Below, in pieces: positions 12,354-46,999 of a stretch of DNA of 64,000 bases. The stretch comes from Viridothelium virens. Lineage: Eukaryota; Ascomycota; Dothideomycetes; Trypetheliales; Trypetheliaceae. The position numbers and the translations under genes were made by a program. The notes below the pieces were generated by a model. That model was given only the letters and a program-made list of their open reading frames with translations. It was not told the DNA's origin and did not search any database. The stretch covers positions 124,001 through 188,000 of the forward strand of contig ML991792.1 of the NCBI GenBank assembly GCA_010094025.1, given 5' to 3'. Positions within the stretch are counted from its first letter, which is position 1. Every line of letters starts with the position of its first letter.

Positions 12354-14138
12354 TCAAATGTGTTCCCCATATCGGCCATGCTGTAACTCACGCACAGCAG
12401 CTCGTTTGATGCCCATCTCAGCCCTTTCCGCTGCAACCTGCTGCTTGGTAATCCTCTCTTTTTCCGAGTCCATCTCCTCCCGGAGAATCTTGATTTGCTT
12501 CTGGATCTCCCGCCACAGCACCAAGTCGTCCAGGTTCTTATCATCGCCCTTCTCCGAAACAGTGATTACCGAAAAATCGACAAGATCATCCTCGGTCGTG
12601 GACGAATCTGAAGTGGTTGGTGGTGCCTCCGGCCCTCGCTGCTGCTGGAGCTCTGACCCTTCTGCATCTTGTACGAGCTGCTGCTGCAGGGCGGCCTCCG
12701 TTTCATCTCCACCATGCTGCTGTAGGCTGCACTGCGTTGCGGCTTCTTGATGCCGCTTTGCATCTTCTCCATACTGCCGAGGGCCTGGGTGCCACGCGTC
12801 TTCCCCAAGTTGCTGCATGTCTGACTTCTCTGCGTCTTCCTCATCCTCCCTGGCTGCTATCGCCAACAAGGCAGCGACGAAAGCCTCTTGCATATATGCG
12901 AAGGAAAATTTGTCAGTGATCCTCGCAATTGCCGTGCAGAGCTTGTCCGGAAATTCCACCTCCGGGTTATCAGCTAGTTTGCCTTGCCAGTAGTGACAGT
13001 ACTGAATTCGCTGATCCATGTTTGGCTCAGGAAAGTAGATTTTGCGATCGAAACGACTGGGTCTCTTCGCAATGCCAGGATCAAGTTGGTCCAAATGGTT
13101 TGTACTACCGATCATGTAGATACCGTCATTTGAGTTCAGTCCGTCGACCTCGTTCAGGAAGTAACTCCGCACGTCATCCGACACAATGCTGTCCAAATCC
13201 TCGAAGACCAAGTAGCACGGCGCTGTCTGTCTTGCCTTCGTAAAGATCTGAGACAACGACCACTGCGGACCACTAAAGCTCGCCAGCGTCCGCACATAGA
13301 GCGTCGGCACAGGATCCTCTCTCTCAAACAACGAATGCATCGTCGCCTTAATCGAGATCGTCTTCCCGTTCCCCGGCGGCCCATGAAAGATGACCCCCCT
13401 CTTCCACGGCACCTTCAGCCGCTCATACGTGCCCCTCGAATCAAAGAACTTATCCACATCGCCAATAATCGCCTTCTTCTTCCCCTCGTCAAGGATGACG
13501 TCCTCCCACTCCGCCTTCTGCACGCTCTGCCACAGCTCCCCACTCTTCTGCCACCACCCCTGATCAAACACCCAAATCTGCTGATGCAGCTCGACCCCCC
13601 ACCTCGACGCCGCCGTCACCAGCTCATCAGCCGCCATCGGCGTCGCCGACAGAATCCCATGCCACACCATCAGTATCAACCCGTCCTCCTGGCCCGTCGC
13701 CACATACACAATGTGCTCCTGGCCCCGGAACTCGTAGAGATACTTCTCGAAGCGCACCACATCCACCAGCGCGCCGCCCGCCCCGCCGTCCAGCCGTCGC
13801 GCAGCTGGAAACCACATCCGCCATTTCACGCTGCCACCACCACCTCCTTCTCCTCCTCGCGCCGCCCCAGAAGAGGAAGAGGAAGAGGACGCGGGAAGCG
13901 ACGAAGACGACTCGTCGACAGGCGTGCAGCGGGCGTGCCCGGCGCCCGCGAAGGCGAGCAGGTCGCACGTCCCACGTGGGGTGAGCGTCAGGTGCAGCTC
14001 CGGGTACTGGGCGCGGAGGGCGTCGGCGAGGACGGTGTCGGTGGAGCAGCGGAGGCCGCGCGAGTGCTCGAGGTATTCGGTTGAGGCGGCGTCGCGGGCG
14101 GGGCGGAAGGCGAGGTGGACGTTTTTCGTGCCGGTCAT
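12354..14138 (-). CDS. BCS1-like AAA ATPase with C-terminal coiled coil
   Basis: Single exon, 594 residues. Residues 1-200 are a fungal-type N-terminal region with a Ser/Gly-rich linker (about 78-103) and no transmembrane segment, unlike true mitochondrial Bcs1. The AAA module follows: Walker A GPPGNGKT at 253-260, Walker B LVFEDLD at 310-316, and a second region of homology around GSTNHLDQLDPGIAKRPSRFD with its arginines. After the ATPase lid comes a Gln-rich stretch (about 445-515) made of degenerate repeats around LQQxGxDA, then an acidic linker and a charged helix likely to form a coiled coil (KQIKILREEMDSEKERITKQ). It is a protein-remodelling ATPase of unknown client, probably cytosolic. 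Codon third positions are strongly C/G. Confidence 0.85.
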   Translation of the reverse strand: MTGTKNVHLAFRPARDAASTEYLEHSRGLRCSTDTVLADALRAQYPELHLTLTPRGTCDLLAFAGAGHARCTPVDESSSSLPASSSSSSSGAARGGEGGGGGSVKWRMWFPAARRLDGGAGGALVDVVRFEKYLYEFRGQEHIVYVATGQEDGLILMVWHGILSATPMAADELVTAASRWGVELHQQIWVFDQGWWQKSGELWQSVQKAEWEDVILDEGKKKAIIGDVDKFFDSRGTYERLKVPWKRGVIFHGPPGNGKTISIKATMHSLFEREDPVPTLYVRTLASFSGPQWSLSQIFTKARQTAPCYLVFEDLDSIVSDDVRSYFLNEVDGLNSNDGIYMIGSTNHLDQLDPGIAKRPSRFDRKIYFPEPNMDQRIQYCHYWQGKLADNPEVEFPDKLCTAIARITDKFSFAYMQEAFVAALLAIAAREDEEDAEKSDMQQLGEDAWHPGPRQYGEDAKRHQEAATQCSLQQHGGDETEAALQQQLVQDAEGSELQQQRGPEAPPTTSDSSTTEDDLVDFSVITVSEKGDDKNLDDLVLWREIQKQIKILREEMDSEKERITKQQVAAERAEMGIKRAAVRELQHGRYGEHI

Positions 14139-14180
14139 GGTTACTTAGAGTTAGGGGGTTCGGGATGTGGAGATCGTGGT

Positions 14181-14280
14181 TCGGATGGGATCGGATGGGA
14201 TCGGATGGAAGGTGAGAGGTTGGGTGGGTTGAGATGGATTGAGATGGAGCAGGCGGGTGTTGGCGGGTGTTGGCGGGGTT
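14181..14280. repeat. Three successive 10-bp tandem repeats
   Basis: Upstream of the AAA ATPase start codon lie three different decamer arrays: TCGGATGGGA three times (14181-14210, last copy changed by one base), GAGATGGATT twice (14231-14250) and GGCGGGTGTT nearly three times (14252-14280). On the transcribed strand these read as C/T-rich leader or promoter sequence. The shared 10-bp period in unrelated units suggests slippage or helical-phase constraint. Confidence 0.8.
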
Positions 14281-14717
14281 AGATGGAGTGAGAAGGCGTG
14301 GTGGTTGATGGCTTCATGAGAGAGGTGTATTGGTTTCCGGTCGGAGGTGGTAGGCAGAAGTCGAAGCTTCTGCTTCAGCCTTGTCCGTCATGAGCGAAGG
14401 AGCTGCTCCGCCATGATTGGAGGGGAAGCTTTGATCGCGGGGGATGGATAGGGCTGTCGAAAACAACAACCATTTCGAAATGACTCATGATTGGGACTCG
14501 GAGATTTTGCGCACACAAGATGCTTTGTGGAGCAATGAAGATGACAGGCGCGCAGTCTTAGCGATAGGGTTGATCAAGAGAGATGTGGGCGAAGAGGATC
14601 CAGCCACATAATGGAGATAGTAGCGGGTAATCTAGATAAAGCCTCTTACTGGATCTATCGAATACAAGTAACTTTCAGGTAACAAAACTTGTCAAATATG
14701 CACCAAATATAATGTCA

Positions 14718-14733
14718 ATATATATTTAAATTT
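14718..14733 (+). promoter_or_regulatory. TATA-like box upstream of tRNA-Val
   Basis: ATATATATTTAAATTT ends 26 bp before the first base of the tRNA cloverleaf. Upstream TATA elements at about this distance help TFIIIB placement at tRNA genes in several ascomycetes. The assignment rests on position and composition only. Confidence 0.45.
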
Positions 14734-14773
14734 GACTTGCAGCGTAATATTCTATGCTGCCGGAGTGATCTAG

Positions 14774-14826
14774 GTAATTTCGTCTCAAGTCGTCCATCAC
14801 GGTATACAAGCCTAACCCATTTGCAG
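14774..14826 (+). other. Spliceosomal-type intron-like insertion in the tRNA D loop
   Basis: This 53-nt segment starts GTAATT, ends CATTTGCAG and contains CTAAC (14812-14816, in AAGCCTAACCC), whose branch-site A lies about 11 nt before the final AG. Length and signals match the protein-gene introns of this window (47-75 nt). Removing it restores A14-G15-T-G18G19 of the D loop. Because AG precedes both junctions, the exact boundary can slide by up to two bases with the same product; the GT-AG placement is one of these. Alternatives are an ectopic intron cut by tRNA endonuclease, or an insertion that killed the gene. Confidence 0.65.
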
Positions 14827-14848
14827 TGGTTATGATACCTCGTTTACA

Positions 14849-14862
14849 CTGTCTACCCTTTA
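14849..14862 (+). other. Canonical 14-nt tRNA intron
   Basis: The insertion lies between A37 and C38 of the anticodon loop, the normal position of eukaryotic tRNA introns removed by the SEN endonuclease. Its removal closes the perfect 5-bp anticodon stem CCTCG/CGAGG over a 7-base loop. Confidence 0.65.
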
Positions 14863-14906
14863 CCGAGGTTGTCGCGCGTTCGATCCGCGCCTCCGGTAGA
14901 AGAACC

Positions 14907-14921
14907 TTTTCTTTTCTTTTT
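14907..14921 (+). terminator. Pol III terminator after tRNA-Val
   Basis: Three T-runs in succession (TTTT-C-TTTT-C-TTTTT) begin 9 nt after the discriminator base. Four or more T on the non-template strand is the normal stop signal of RNA polymerase III. Confidence 0.65.
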
Positions 14922-15871
14922 GCTCTGTCGTGTGGCTGCGGCGCAAGTGGATGAGTTTTCATTTTTGATATTCCATTGTTCGTTCGCACGGCGCCGGCTC
15001 TAACCCAGCGACAGACAGCGGTAAGATTCTGACGCGGGGCTCCAGCTGGCTAAGTCTCGTACCGCTGTTGCCGCCGTACGGTGTACAAAGGACGGCACGT
15101 GGAGCAGGGAACTTGAAAGAGGGACGCTGTCGGATTCATGTGGAATAGGGAACATCCATGGTCAAATCGAATTCAAAACATCGGGAAGTAGGGCGACAGA
15201 TTCTGCTCAACCCGAAACGCAAGGGTATCTACAGGAGTTGAGACGGAGCTTGTGTTACCTACTCAATCGAATATGCTTAACGCATGGTCGGTTGATTTCC
15301 AAATTCATGGGAGGTTGCAGGTTTGTAACTTAACGATCTGAGGACTCGGTTTTCTGGGGTTGCGAACTGGTAACTACTGGAGACAAGTGCGCTATTACGG
15401 TGCACATATCTAAGCGACAGCTTCCAAGATAACCTGCGCGCGTGATCGCAAAGCCAAGTCGATTACCGGGTGCTGTGCCACGCAATAGATGAAAATGTTT
15501 GGGCGTAGAAAGGCTCGAGCACGAAGGAGTGGATCTCCGTTAAAGATCTGAATTTAGCCGGAATGAATGCATGGTGCCGCTGCACGCCACCAAGAGCGGT
15601 GAACGCACGGATTCTGCTGACAATACATCCATCTCGGCAGGAAATTAAACATCAGTATTGGAAGTGAACGGACAATTGTAGGAAAGCTCCGAGAAGCTTG
15701 TCAAGGGTATGAAATGAATCTTCCTTCAATTGTTAGTAGAAGAGTAATTGGAGTAATGGAATGCCCATTGGCGACATGGAATGAGAACGGTGCCAAAAAC
15801 AAACACGTCGCGTCGCACAGAGCTTCGCAACCAACGCCAAGCAAACTCTAGAAGTAGTACCACCCTTTTTC
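14922..15871. other. Intergenic gap, nothing recognised
   Basis: There is no exon chain on either strand between the tRNA and the end of the acetate-transporter family gene. The part next to 15872 should be that gene's 3' untranslated region. Confidence 0.5.
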
Positions 15872-16931
15872 TTAAACTGCCTCCGCAGCGCGTGCAGCGC
15901 TGTTGTCAACCTTTCCGCGCCTCTCGCGACCCTTCTCAGACCAGGGAAAGTGAGCGACGGGAATCAAGAAAAAGCTGCAGAGGTGTCAGTGCTCATGTTC
16001 CACATGGGATGAAGCGCATGCAAGAGCGGGCCGCATACCTGTTACCCGTATCTGCAATACCAGCCAAGGCGTTGTACCACGCCAAGAATGCCGCCAGGAT
16101 ACCGAAAACACCACCAGCCTTGATACATCCCTCTCGTGGGGCACCATCCACACGATCGGCGTAGCCAATACCCAGCATCAGGAAGGCCATGTCCAAGGTA
16201 AAGAAGAGAAGGAAGAAGGCGACGGTAGATCGTAGCGTGCAGATCAGAAGAATGAAGGTAAAAATGAACCAGCCCTGTGGACATTGTCAGCATGGGATAC
16301 TCGCAGCTAGAATTTTCGTGACATACGAAAAGGAAGAGCGCTAGAGAGTCAAGGAACATTGTTTCTTTTCCGCCGTCTGCCGCCTCTAATTGGCTGAGGA
16401 TTTGGAAACCGCCTGGAGTAAAGATAATGCCGAAAGCAATCCAGAATCCTCCGTATGAAGAAAGGGCGGTAGCACCAAAAGTGTTACCAACAGCCATTTC
16501 CCTGCAAGTGATGTGAGCTGCATTCATGACTGATGTAAGTTCGACAAGTCCACCTACCACATGCCTGCGAGGAGCTGGACAAGACCTCCGTATCCAAAAG
16601 CAGCAGCAACAACAATGTTGGGTTCTGAGATTCCGCGCGTACCCATGTTAATGAGAGATAGAACGAAGGTAGTCAAGGCGAAAGCCGATAGACCAAGAGG
16701 CGCTGGATTGGCAATCTTGCGATCCGCAATGGGCTTGTATAGACCGGGTTGGAATTCACCACCGAAAGCTGGTAAACGGGCAGAGTCGTTGGTGTTGAGA
16801 TGAGCCAAGGGATTTCCGCCATAGTCATATGGTCTTCTCAGCCGGGCATCATTGGCGTGATCCTGCGTGTGAGTACCATCGCTCTCCTTGAAGGCGCCGG
16901 TAGTATCGTTGTGCTCTTGCGTAGTAGCCAT
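15872..16931 (-). CDS. GPR1/FUN34/YaaH (Ato/AcpA-type) acetate transporter
   Basis: Four exons: 16931-16558, 16501-16327, 16274-16039 and 15974-15872, 295 residues; introns of 56, 52 and 64 nt all have GT-AG ends. The family signature NPAPLGL lies at residues 75-81, directly before the first of six hydrophobic helices. Other landmarks are MWEMAVGNTFGATAL across splice 1, GWFIFTFILLICTLRSTVAF after splice 2, and the ending SFFLIPVAHFPWSEKGRERR created by the last splice. Family members (yeast Ady2/Ato2, Aspergillus AcpA) carry acetate and, in some cases, are linked to ammonium export at the plasma membrane. The hydrophilic 70-residue N-terminus is normal for fungal members. Induction on acetate is usual in the family, but no FacB site was searched for systematically. 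Confidence 0.92.
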
Positions 16932-40682: not shown

Positions 40683-42563
40683 ATGTTCGCGAATTATATT
40701 TGCCCTCGATGCTTTTCCAAAGAAGGAGTTCTAAACAATGCATTGCGTTACTCGAGGCCTCAAAGTCTAAATCACAGAAGCCGGAGCCAGGACATTGCAA
40801 GATTGTTCAGTCAACATGCTCGACGCGCCGATACTCTCAAAACCGAGCCATACACCACTCCTCTTCAAAATGATGTCAAGAACATACGAGAATCTGTGGA
40901 GAAAGGAAAGGAAAGCGTATTAGACGTTTTGGAGGCGCGTGGGTTTATCCATGATATTGCAGGGTAGATTTGACAAGTGTAATACAAGACGGAATTAAGC
41001 CTCACACTTCGTAGGGCTCGAATTGGCTTGGACGATCTTCTCAAGAAAACGAGTCCCGGTGTATATGTGGGTATTGATCCTACGGCACCTTCACTCCATG
41101 TCGGACACCTACTCCCTCTTATGGCCCTGCTCTGGATGTCTCTCTCTGGCTATCCTACCTTCCCCTTAGTATGTGGGACTGTTGGACAATCGAAATTCAG
41201 ATCATGGCTCATGGCATATAGGTCGGAGGTTTCACAGCCAGAATCGGTGATCCTTCGGGAAGGACCACTGCCAGAGATCTTCAGAGCTCTACCACAATAG
41301 CGGACAACTCGGCACGGATCGTTAACCAACTTGAGAAGCTCTGGAAATTGTTCGGGAAATACGCTCATTCTCACAAACAATACGGCGCGGGACAGAATGC
41401 AGTAAAAAACAACGCGGAGTGGGGACCTGCATTGACCTTGGAGGATTTTCTACGGACAATTGGAACAGGAGTGAGACTGGGAACCATGCTAAGCAGAGAC
41501 ACGTGGGTAGGCACCGTTCACTTACTATAAGGACATCTTTAGTAAAGATGAAGACTAAGATCGCTCTCAGCGTCAAGATCCGTTTGGCAAAGGGAGGAGG
41601 CATGTCCTTTGCTGAATTCACCTATCCTCTATTACAGTCATACGACTTCGTGCACTTGTACCGGACTTTTGACGTTCAATTGCAAATCGGCGGCTCTGAT
41701 CAGTATGGCAACATTGTCGCTGGCATCGATGCAATAAATCACTACCAAGCGACAGCACCATCGGTACCCGGTGAAAAGAAAAAGGATGCTAAAGATCCCT
41801 TGAGCACACCATATGGTCTCACTGTTCCTCTGCTCACTACTGCATCTGGAGCTAAATTCGGCAAAAGTGCCGGAAATGCTATCTGGCTTGACTCGGAAAA
41901 GACCAGTATCTTCGACTTGTACGGAGTAGGCACTCCCCGCCAACTCCTCTGACCTCTTCAATTTCTGAATGAAATTCATAGTTCATGCTTTCCACGGCCG
42001 ACGCCGACGTCGAGCGCTTCCTCAAACTCTTCACCCTCGTTCCTCTCCACCAAATCGCTCAGGCCATGGAATTCCACGCCAAAGACCCCTCCGCTCGCCA
42101 TCCGCAGCACCTTCTCGCGCATGAACTCGTCTCCCTCGTCCACGGCGCCACAGCAGCGGATCGAGCGCGTAGTCAGCATGCACAGCTCTTTGGTAGGCGA
42201 GGCCTCCTGGACACCAAGACTACTACAGGCGACTCTGAAGCCTCATCTGCCTCTCTTTCGCTTGTCCCAGACCTCACCCTCCCCCGCTCCCACGTCCTCG
42301 GTCACTCATTCGTCCACGTCATCGTTCTCGCCAAGTTGACGGATACCCGTTCCATGGCTCAGAACGCGATTGAGGCTAAGGGCATCTACCTCGGGGCGTC
42401 AGGTCAGACGAGACTGGTTTTCAGCAGGAGAGTGGAAGATCGGAAGGAGGTTGTGAGGGAACAAGATCTAGTGGAGGGTCGGTGGTTGGTGCTGAGGAAG
42501 GGAAAGAAGGATGTAGGGATTGTGGAGGTGGTGGATGATGAGGGATGGGAAGAGAAAGACTAG
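40683..42563 (+). CDS. MSY1: Mitochondrial tyrosyl-tRNA synthetase
   Basis: Five exons: 40683-40963, 41015-41168, 41222-41502, 41571-41925 and 41982-42563, 550 residues; introns of 51, 53, 68 and 56 nt. The basic N-terminus (about 50 residues) fits a mitochondrial presequence. Class I features: GVYVGIDPTAPSLHVGHLLP with the HIGH-like HVGH near residue 121, VGGFTARIGDPSGR created by splice 2, the tyrosine-site run GGSDQYGNIVAGID, and the KMSKS-like KFGKSAGNAIWLD near residue 334. The helical anticodon-binding part follows (TADADVERFLKLFTLVPL), and the last 60 residues resemble an S4 domain (GIYLGASGQTRLVF). It charges mitochondrial tRNA-Tyr. The gene converges on NOP7, with 360 bp between stops. 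Confidence 0.93.
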
Positions 42564-45488: not shown

Positions 45489-46999
45489 ATGGCCATTGAT
45501 CGCCGGAAAGCAGTCCTATATGGATCTGCGGCAGCTATTCGTCTCTTCTTATTTACCGTCTTCCCTTCTCTCCCTGATCTTTTAACTGGACGGGTTGAAA
45601 TCTCGACGCCGGTGACGAGCTTTAAGAGATGTGTGTGCTTATATGAAATTGCTCTACTCCAAATATACTGACAAGCGTCTCAAATGCAGTGCAAGAAGGC
45701 TTATTCCTCTACACGCACAATGTCTCTCCTTACGATGGCGGCGTCTTTCACCAAGTATGATGGGTTGCAGCCTATTTGAAAACCTCATGTCTGACAGCTC
45801 TACAGGCGCCGCTTTTGCTTCCTCTATTCTCCTTACTTCCAGACCTAAAGCAATATCCCTTTGCGACCAATGTTCTATACACGGCGGTCGATTTGCTTTG
45901 CGCGAATGCACTCATGGAGTTGGCACAGACCGGTCAAGCGACATCGTCACGTTATTTCACATCGCCTAGAAAAAGGATGACATGGAGTGCGGTCTCAATT
46001 GGCGCCAGGTGAGACACGAAAGCATAGCTGCTTAAAGATTTGGGTTGAACTAATCTAACTTTCACCAGCTTTCTCTTCAACCCTTTTACTATCCTAACCT
46101 GTCTGGCCCGACCTACCAGCGTCTTCACCAATCTCTTCATTACTCTCGCTACCACAAAGGCCGCGCAAGGAGCTACTTCGACATACATCATTGCTCTCTC
46201 GTTCGCCTCCTACCTCTCGCTCTATCCCGTTCTCCTCTTCCCACCCCTAGCTATCCTCTGCTATGATCGCCAAGCCTCCCTGACAACCAAAACCGATAGA
46301 TCTTCCAGTCCCATTACTTTCACAATTACCCACGTTAGTGCTCTTGCGGCCGGTATTGGTGCTCTTCTCTACCTATCCTATTTCCTCACTGGCTTTTCTT
46401 GGGAATTCATCCCCTCCACCTACGGCGTGCAGCTGCTTCTCCCTGACCTCACTCCTAACGTGGGACTTTGGTGGTACTTTTTCACTGAAATGTTCGACAG
46501 CTTCCGAGAGTTCTTTCTGGGCGTCTTCTGGCTGCATATGGCGTCGTATGTCGGTGGACTGAGCTTCCGTCTCAGAAACCAGCCGTTGTTCGTTGTAACA
46601 ACCTTATTAGGCATTTTTGCGGTGTACCAGCCATACCCAAGCATTTCGGACACGAGTCTATATTTTGCATTTCTCGCCCTGTATCGACATATTATACCAT
46701 GTAAGTGTCGTCTCCATTCCCATTCACTGATTCAGACGCTGATCTTGGCGGCAACAACAGTAATGCGGTATTCGTTCTTCCTTGTTGCAGCATTGCTGTA
46801 TGCATCGTTTCTGGGCCCGGCGTTCTACTACTTGTGGGTATATGCTGGATCCGGGAATGCCAACTTCTTCTATGCCATCACTCTTGTTTGGAGTCTAGGC
46901 CTATCCTTCATCGTCGCGGATTCACTCTATGCAGTTCTACGGGACGAGTGGGAGGTGGAACGGCCGGAGATGCGAGGAAAAGAAGCCAGGCAAATATAG
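45489..46999 (+). CDS. GAB1: GPI transamidase subunit PIG-U (Gab1/Cdc91)
   Basis: Five exons: 45489-45630, 45690-45754, 45806-46008, 46069-46700 and 46761-46999, 426 residues; introns 51-60 nt. The multi-spanning protein shows PIG-U landmarks: TPVTSFKR-LQEGLFLYTHNVSPYDGGVFHQ, then APLLLPLFSLLPD after splice 2, SFLFNPFTILTCLARPT, the lumenal segment GFSWEFIPSTYGVQLLLPDL, NVGLWWYFFTEMFDSFREFF, and near the end FLGPAFYYLWVYAGSGNANF with YAITLVWSLGLSFIVAD. PIG-U works with Gpi8, Gaa1, Gpi16 and Gpi17 to attach GPI anchors to proteins in the ER. Intron 4 is 60 nt and in frame, so retention would insert 20 residues without a stop. Its stop is only 40 bp from that of the NAA40-like gene. Confidence 0.93.

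Follow-up and report, generated by a model that had tools for sequence, protein, structure and literature searches.

Positions 14759-14898 of the DNA analysed here (a single stretch of 64 kb, called the window throughout) hold what is, on balance, probably a working Pol III gene for tRNA-Val(UAC), carrying two introns of different kinds and needing both splicing machines for its expression. One of these is a 14-nt intron in the anticodon loop, while the other is a 53-nt insert in the D loop that has the borders and the branch-point motif of an mRNA intron. Taken one step further, there is perhaps an even chance that this is a living tRNA gene whose transcript passes through the spliceosome and then through the tRNA splicing endonuclease, in which case no other tRNA is known that needs the spliceosome, and the gene would belong to a class that common annotation would miss. 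As judged from the letters of the locus and its surroundings, the best reading is that the gene is alive or was so until very recently.

The cloverleaf and its anticodon-loop intron

When both inserts (14774-14826 and 14849-14862; Table 1) are left out of the locus, what remains is a 73-nt tRNA-Val(UAC) to which ARAGORN gives a score of 115.3, all eight of the E. coli tRNAs scored as a yardstick lying slightly above this value (116.4-125.2). Leaving out the D-loop segment alone also gives a Val(tac) call, with a 14-nt intron at 37/38 and a score of 104.0. ARAGORN finds no gene in the unspliced locus, nor in the locus with just the anticodon intron taken out, and the raw 64-kb window contains no tRNA by the same program, whether run with the bacterial code or with anticodon-loop introns allowed. 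Similarly, the Rfam tRNA model has no match in the window at the gathering score and none in 14600-15000 at E values up to 10.

Table 1 Features of the tRNA-Val(UAC) locus, with positions numbered from the first letter of the window.
Feature	Position	Strand	Basis
AT-rich TATA-like block, proposed Pol III start signal, 27-41 bp upstream of first tRNA base	14718..14732	+	Position statistics in window
tRNA exon 1, bases 1-15 (acceptor strand, U8, G9, D stem, A14, G15)	14759..14773	+	Cloverleaf after removal of both inserts
Probable spliceosomal-type intron, 53 nt, D loop between bases 15 and 16, GTAATT...CTAAC...GCAG	14774..14826	+	D-loop grammar, up to 2-base slide
Candidate branch-point motif CTAAC, branch A 11 nt before intron end	14812..14816	+	Sequence
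tRNA exon 2, bases 16-37 (rest of D arm, anticodon stem 5' strand, UAC, A37)	14827..14848	+	ARAGORN, cloverleaf
14-nt intron at canonical 37/38 site, register slides one base either way	14849..14862	+	ARAGORN, intron fixed at 37/38
tRNA exon 3, bases 38-73 (anticodon stem 3' strand, variable loop, T arm, acceptor, A73)	14863..14898	+	ARAGORN, cloverleaf
T4-C-T4-C-T5 tract, proposed Pol III terminator	14907..14921	+	Position statistics in window

The spliced product has a 7-bp acceptor stem (including G1-U72), anticodon and T stems of 5 bp each, and a D stem made up of A10-U25, U11-A24 and C12-G23 plus U13.U22, the last of these being usual in tRNA-Val. It is also the single exception among the 21 stem positions, the other 20 being paired, and the conserved base is present at each of the 19 conserved positions checked. 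An earlier sequence-only reading of this DNA had described just such a cloverleaf, reached by two omissions and marred by one G-U pair and one 13-22 mismatch, and both that description and the coordinates and letters it gave for the locus hold good. Two features of the body are out of the ordinary, namely the presence of A10 in place of the usual G10 and the splitting of the A box by the intron between bases 15 and 16; G10 is near-universal in tRNAs, and the combination of G10 with an unbroken A box is usual, if not absolute.

The identity of the tRNA depends on how the anticodon-loop intron is placed. With no position imposed on the intron, ARAGORN reports Lys(ttt), and with the intron fixed at 37/38, Val(tac). 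Preference is given to Val on account of the loop UUUACAC and of A73, both of which are those of Val(UAC), and the same anticodon loop and discriminator rule out tRNA-Lys(UUU). A tRNA-derived SINE is likewise ruled out, the acceptor stem, A73 and the T tract all being in place.

As to the anticodon-loop intron itself, it had been called the usual 14-nt kind, and ARAGORN agrees, placing it at 37/38, one base 3' of the anticodon. The anticodon-intron pair, which by the yeast rule is made with base -3, is absent here, since the base three before the end of the intron, opposite U32, is a U and never a purine in any of the three registers (3/3). Passages in PMC10539383 describe this pair as both vital and strictly placed in human pre-tRNAs.

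Borders of the D-loop insert

Where the 53-nt insert begins and ends was approached through the tRNA rather than through splice signals. Every stretch of 1-100 bases with its start in 14745-14899 and its end by 14905 was deleted in turn (n = 11,129), and after 78 of these single deletions ARAGORN calls a tRNA, which in at least one case is other than Val. The program seemingly gives no weight to the letters of the D loop, and some other deletions score above the one running from GT to AG (104.0), namely 14778-14833 at 106.2 and both 14770-14823 and 14771-14824 at 105.3, all of which leave non-canonical D loops. Requiring that the D loop on this D stem be of canonical form (A14, R15, 1-3 pyrimidines, GG, 1-3 bases, A21) keeps three of the 78, these being 14772-14824, 14773-14825 and 14774-14826, and all three leave one identical product; an AG repeat at the flank allows the borders a two-base slide. 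One of the three registers, 14774-14826, runs from GT to AG. It is thus the canonical grammar of the tRNA that sets the borders, so that the splice signals are found there rather than picked, and the GT start, CTAAC and GCAG end that had been claimed for a 53-nt segment are indeed present at these borders.

Spliceosomal-type signals in the insert

How readily such signals would arise by chance was gauged in two ways. Among 400,000 random 53-nt inserts placed between the fixed exons and having the dinucleotide make-up of the intergenic stretch, 0.97% have GT-AG in any equivalent register and 0.18% have GTR-YAG; the fraction that also has CTRAY 8-20 nt from the end is 7.25e-5, and that with GTR...CTAAC...YAG is 1.25e-5, or about one in 80,000. 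Conversely, if intron-like stretches are defined as GTR...CTRAY...YAG of 40-110 nt on either strand, the window holds 298 of them, and removal of a single one (14774-14826) yields a tRNA, as against none of the 3,516 removals made as a control in eight random windows (402-482 such stretches in each). Together with the fact that the borders are set by D-loop grammar, these figures bear out the earlier assignment, and the view that the insert is of the spliceosomal (U2) type is well supported by its signals. A group I or group II ribozyme is ruled out by the length of 53 nt.

The same figures bear on the suspicion that there is no tRNA gene here at all, its cloverleaf and intron signals being a coincidence or an assembly error. 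It is true that two segments must go before a tRNA appears, but in 200 random windows of 64 kb (12.8 Mb) with the dinucleotide make-up of the window ARAGORN made just one call without introns (101.4) and two with introns (best 101.8), i.e. at most two in all of this sequence, both scoring lower than the locus itself, and the control removals gave none. Chance is strongly disfavoured, and as an explanation it is very improbable indeed.

The 5' splice site is GTAATT, having T rather than G at +5. G at this position is common in U2-type introns without being universal, and six successive pairs with U1 would be kept thanks to the AG that precedes the splice site. Folding of the precursor is predicted to leave the 5' splice site partly base-paired. 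The further suggestion that the intron was gained at a proto-splice site is plausible, the exons reading TAG/T after removal. Within the 64-kb window, a search for copies of the insert gives chance-level matches only, the longest being 11 nt without a mismatch or 15 nt with a single one, and the lowest E value 0.52.

A comparison had also been drawn with the size of local mRNA introns, and this stands in part: 53 nt is near the 56, 60, 60, 61 and 67 nt inferred for introns of the window, but the match is only rough because these values come from the joining of open frames. A total of 21 joins of 42-136 nt was found in the window (many surely false), two of which were used (46009-46068 and 46701-46760, 60 nt each). 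Of eight frame pairs tried, four gave no join; the TyrRS pair gave one, of 56 nt with CTGAC 29 nt from its end, the MFS and GH43 pairs gave four and six respectively (the best scoring being of 67 and 61 nt, neither with CTRAY in range), and from the ank pair came another three (45, 66 and 114 nt), which were left out of the comparison.

It is natural to ask whether the D-loop insert might instead be an ectopic tRNA-type intron. Such an intron would be cut out by the tRNA splicing endonuclease, which would act on a bulge-helix-bulge, strict or relaxed, and this has been proposed for the tRNAs of Cyanidioschyzon. D-loop introns do occur in some algal tRNA genes, according to passages in PMC4090602 and PMC3978253, and a scan of 56 border combinations gave two in which a 4-bp central helix can be formed. 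Both of these are off-register, and such a helix is found in none of the three proper registers, the best having three of four central pairs with one of three in the outer helix. Since the canonical 14-nt intron also fails to form the central helix (at most one pair of four), this must be considered a weak test for eukaryotic introns, and more weight is therefore put on the presence of GT, CTAAC and AG, signals that are dispensable for endonuclease introns and that membership of that class does not predict at the borders. An endonuclease-type origin of the insert accordingly seems improbable.

Flanking signals and genomic setting

Upstream of the tRNA there is a TATA-like block and downstream of it a broken tract of T (Table 1). 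TATAWA occurs within -50 to -20 of 0.63% of window positions, and an A+T content as high as that found here at 0.017%; a run of five T with a second run of four T within 40 nt downstream occurs at 0.48%, and the TATA-like block and T runs are found together at 0.02% of window positions, bearing in mind that neighbouring positions are not independent. Flanks that look Pol III-like are in place around the tRNA. With the A box split, it would fall to the TATA-like block and the B box to direct the start of transcription.

The tRNA sits between two frames on the minus strand, both with Pfam matches: an AAA ATPase (12354-14144) and a member of the GPR1/FUN34/YaaH family (16042-16647). The latter covers just positions 65-123 of the 207 in its profile, so that it may be an interrupted or a multi-exon gene, and upstream of the former, at 14150-14290, short direct repeats are visible by eye (GATCGGATGG and GGCGGGTGTT). 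An open frame of 107 codons runs antisense through the tRNA gene (14729-15049, minus strand); frames of this kind may be annotated as hypothetical proteins. On the plus strand there is no open frame of at least 180 codons between 14145 and 16041, the longest seen having 114 codons (15757-16098, where the end of the stretch examined cuts it), so that there is no obvious plus-strand mRNA to own the intron, though there may be a less obvious one. A second intron-like stretch, AG/GTAACA...TTGCAG, lies on the plus strand at 14679-14742; it is 64 nt long, overlaps the TATA-like block and is probably due to chance, since it is without a CTRAY motif.

These surroundings are relevant to the idea of a Pol II transcript that crosses the locus and loses the intron by splicing, the tRNA exons merely riding along in an untranslated or non-coding RNA. 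Spliceosomal introns are known in Pol II non-coding RNAs, as described in passages of PMC6726248, and the intron-like stretch just upstream could be counted in favour of such a transcript, were it not for its missing CTRAY motif. The Pol III-type signals that flank the tRNA, the minus-strand orientation of the neighbouring Pfam-matched frames and the shortness of the plus-strand frames between them all speak against this idea, which is unlikely to be right.

As far as the window in general is concerned, its proteins make it look like nuclear DNA of a filamentous ascomycete. A mitochondrial TyrRS is encoded in two frames at 41335-42563 on the plus strand, joined by the inferred 56-nt intron, and its best structure fits are 5ijx, 1y42 and 5ihx, all Pezizomycotina enzymes; 1y42 is CYT-18, a Neurospora TyrRS with a second role as a helper in group I intron splicing. 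For a Pescadillo frame the best structure fit is 8i9p (692 bits), followed by 8esq (467) and 11aa (407), which are presumably from Chaetomium, fission yeast and budding yeast, respectively.

Relatives of the locus were sought with four DNA patterns derived from this tRNA (the T arm; the D loop with insert; the D arm to the anticodon; the D arm to the T loop). None was found in a collection of viral contigs with all four patterns and two further D-loop-intron patterns, in genome contigs with two of the four, or in plasmids by blastn of 14600-15000; none of these collections is fungal, so that absence of relatives from them says little. The sole pattern match, in the viral contigs (L001:4019-4070), is put down to chance, since it falls within an open frame of 920 codons on a phage-like contig in which ARAGORN finds no tRNA. 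It does serve to show the chance level of D-loop patterns.

Proposed expression of the gene, and the case for a recent death

If the gene does work, its expression might be pictured as follows. Transcription by Pol III, directed by the TATA-like block upstream and by the B box, would end in the T tract, producing a precursor in which the 53-nt D-loop intron, besides splitting the A box, would prevent folding of the cloverleaf. The spliceosome would remove this intron in the nucleus, much as it deals with the mRNA-type intron of fission-yeast U6, and it is only then that the body could fold. The tRNA splicing endonuclease would presumably act afterwards, removing the 14-nt intron at 37/38, an order suggested by this enzyme's reading of the folded mature body together with the D arm. 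Passages in PMC4090602 and PMC10539383 describe the endonuclease as reading the folded tRNA body, D arm included.

Several points count against a living gene, namely A10, the split A box, T at +5 of the D-loop intron, the lack of an anticodon-intron pair and the partial pairing of the 5' splice site in the predicted fold. A10, the T at +5 and the missing purine opposite U32 had not been stressed in the earlier reading. The first four of these points, with the weak +5 position among them, are also what might be expected if the gene had recently been killed. On this account, which is the main rival to a working gene served by two splicing machines and is a real if distinctly less probable possibility, an authentic spliceosomal intron landed in the D loop (by reverse splicing, through an introner-type element or during repair), the copy is silent or its product is not made, and intact copies elsewhere serve the cell.

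One way to judge how recent such a death would have to be is to ask how soon random change would become visible. In trials in which random substitutions were introduced into the exons and the result was scored for retention of all 19 positions and 20 pairs, one, two, three and five substitutions left the exons this intact in 34%, 14%, 5.5% and 1.1% of cases, respectively. These rates imply either that constraint still acts on the exons or that it ceased to do so very recently, and the first two of them show that one or two changes since a death might pass unseen. Against a recent death stand the intact cloverleaf, the intact intron signals and conserved positions, the presence together of the TATA-like block and the T tract, and the fact that the 64-kb window contains no similar copy of the insert. 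It is on these grounds that a gene still working, or at any rate one that has stopped working only very recently, is the reading adopted here.

Implications

Should the working-gene reading prove true, Pol III transcripts of ordinary genes would be able to feed the spliceosome, the supply of one tRNA would be tied to splicing capacity, and a case of intron gain would have been caught outside mRNA. tRNA splicing is described, in passages of PMC13149111, as independent of the spliceosome. Fungal tRNA sets might also turn out to be undercounted, because ARAGORN with introns allowed and the Rfam tRNA model both miss this gene; common annotation would be expected to miss others like it, since introns of eukaryotic tRNAs are sought in the anticodon loop. 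For tRNAscan-SE 2.0, passages in PMC8450103 describe a search for non-canonical introns in the archaeal mode.

Comparison with known systems

It had been claimed that no tRNA with a GT-CTAAC-AG intron is known, and in agreement with this no tRNA gene with a GT-AG intron appears among the literature matches listed (titles, abstract openings and some passages). Four known systems offer partial parallels. The introner-like elements of Dothideomycetes (PMC4457414) are known to give rise to new spliceosomal introns in filamentous ascomycetes. An element of that kind would be expected to have many similar copies in other genes of the genome; the 64-kb window has no copy of the insert.

The tRNA genes of the red alga Cyanidioschyzon merolae and of the Guillardia theta nucleomorph offer a parallel as regards the position of the intron. 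According to passages in PMC4090602 and PMC3978253, they have introns outside 37/38, including in the D loop and in some genes several at once; the same passages hold the splicing endonuclease, with bulge-helix-bulge motifs, responsible for the ectopic introns of C. merolae, and give the way in which those of Guillardia are spliced as unknown. The likeness lies in an extra intron outside 37/38. The difference is that the insert described here has GT-CTAAC-AG borders and no bulge-helix-bulge helix in register.

Another parallel comes from fungal rRNA. Rogers et al., cited in PMC11782384, are said to have described, in 1993, spliceosomal introns in nuclear rRNA genes of fungi, and there are lichen cases of such introns in rRNA genes as well. 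Here too an mRNA-type intron sits in a fungal gene for a structural RNA, but rRNA is a Pol I transcript and not a tRNA.

The precedent among Pol III transcripts is the U6 gene of Schizosaccharomyces pombe, in which Tani and Ohshima reportedly found an mRNA-type intron. Passages in PMC10484740 describe this intron as being spliced out of the U6 snRNA. In both cases a U2-type intron would lie inside a structural RNA made by Pol III in an ascomycete, its removal at the tRNA locus being a prediction. They differ in that the host RNA here is a tRNA, which is not part of the spliceosome, and in that there is a second intron of another class; since the host is not a spliceosomal component, reverse splicing, as proposed for U6, offers itself less readily as an origin. 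Introns of mRNA type in U6 and in fungal rRNA are thus already familiar, and what would be new, if the present reading is right, is one in a tRNA gene.
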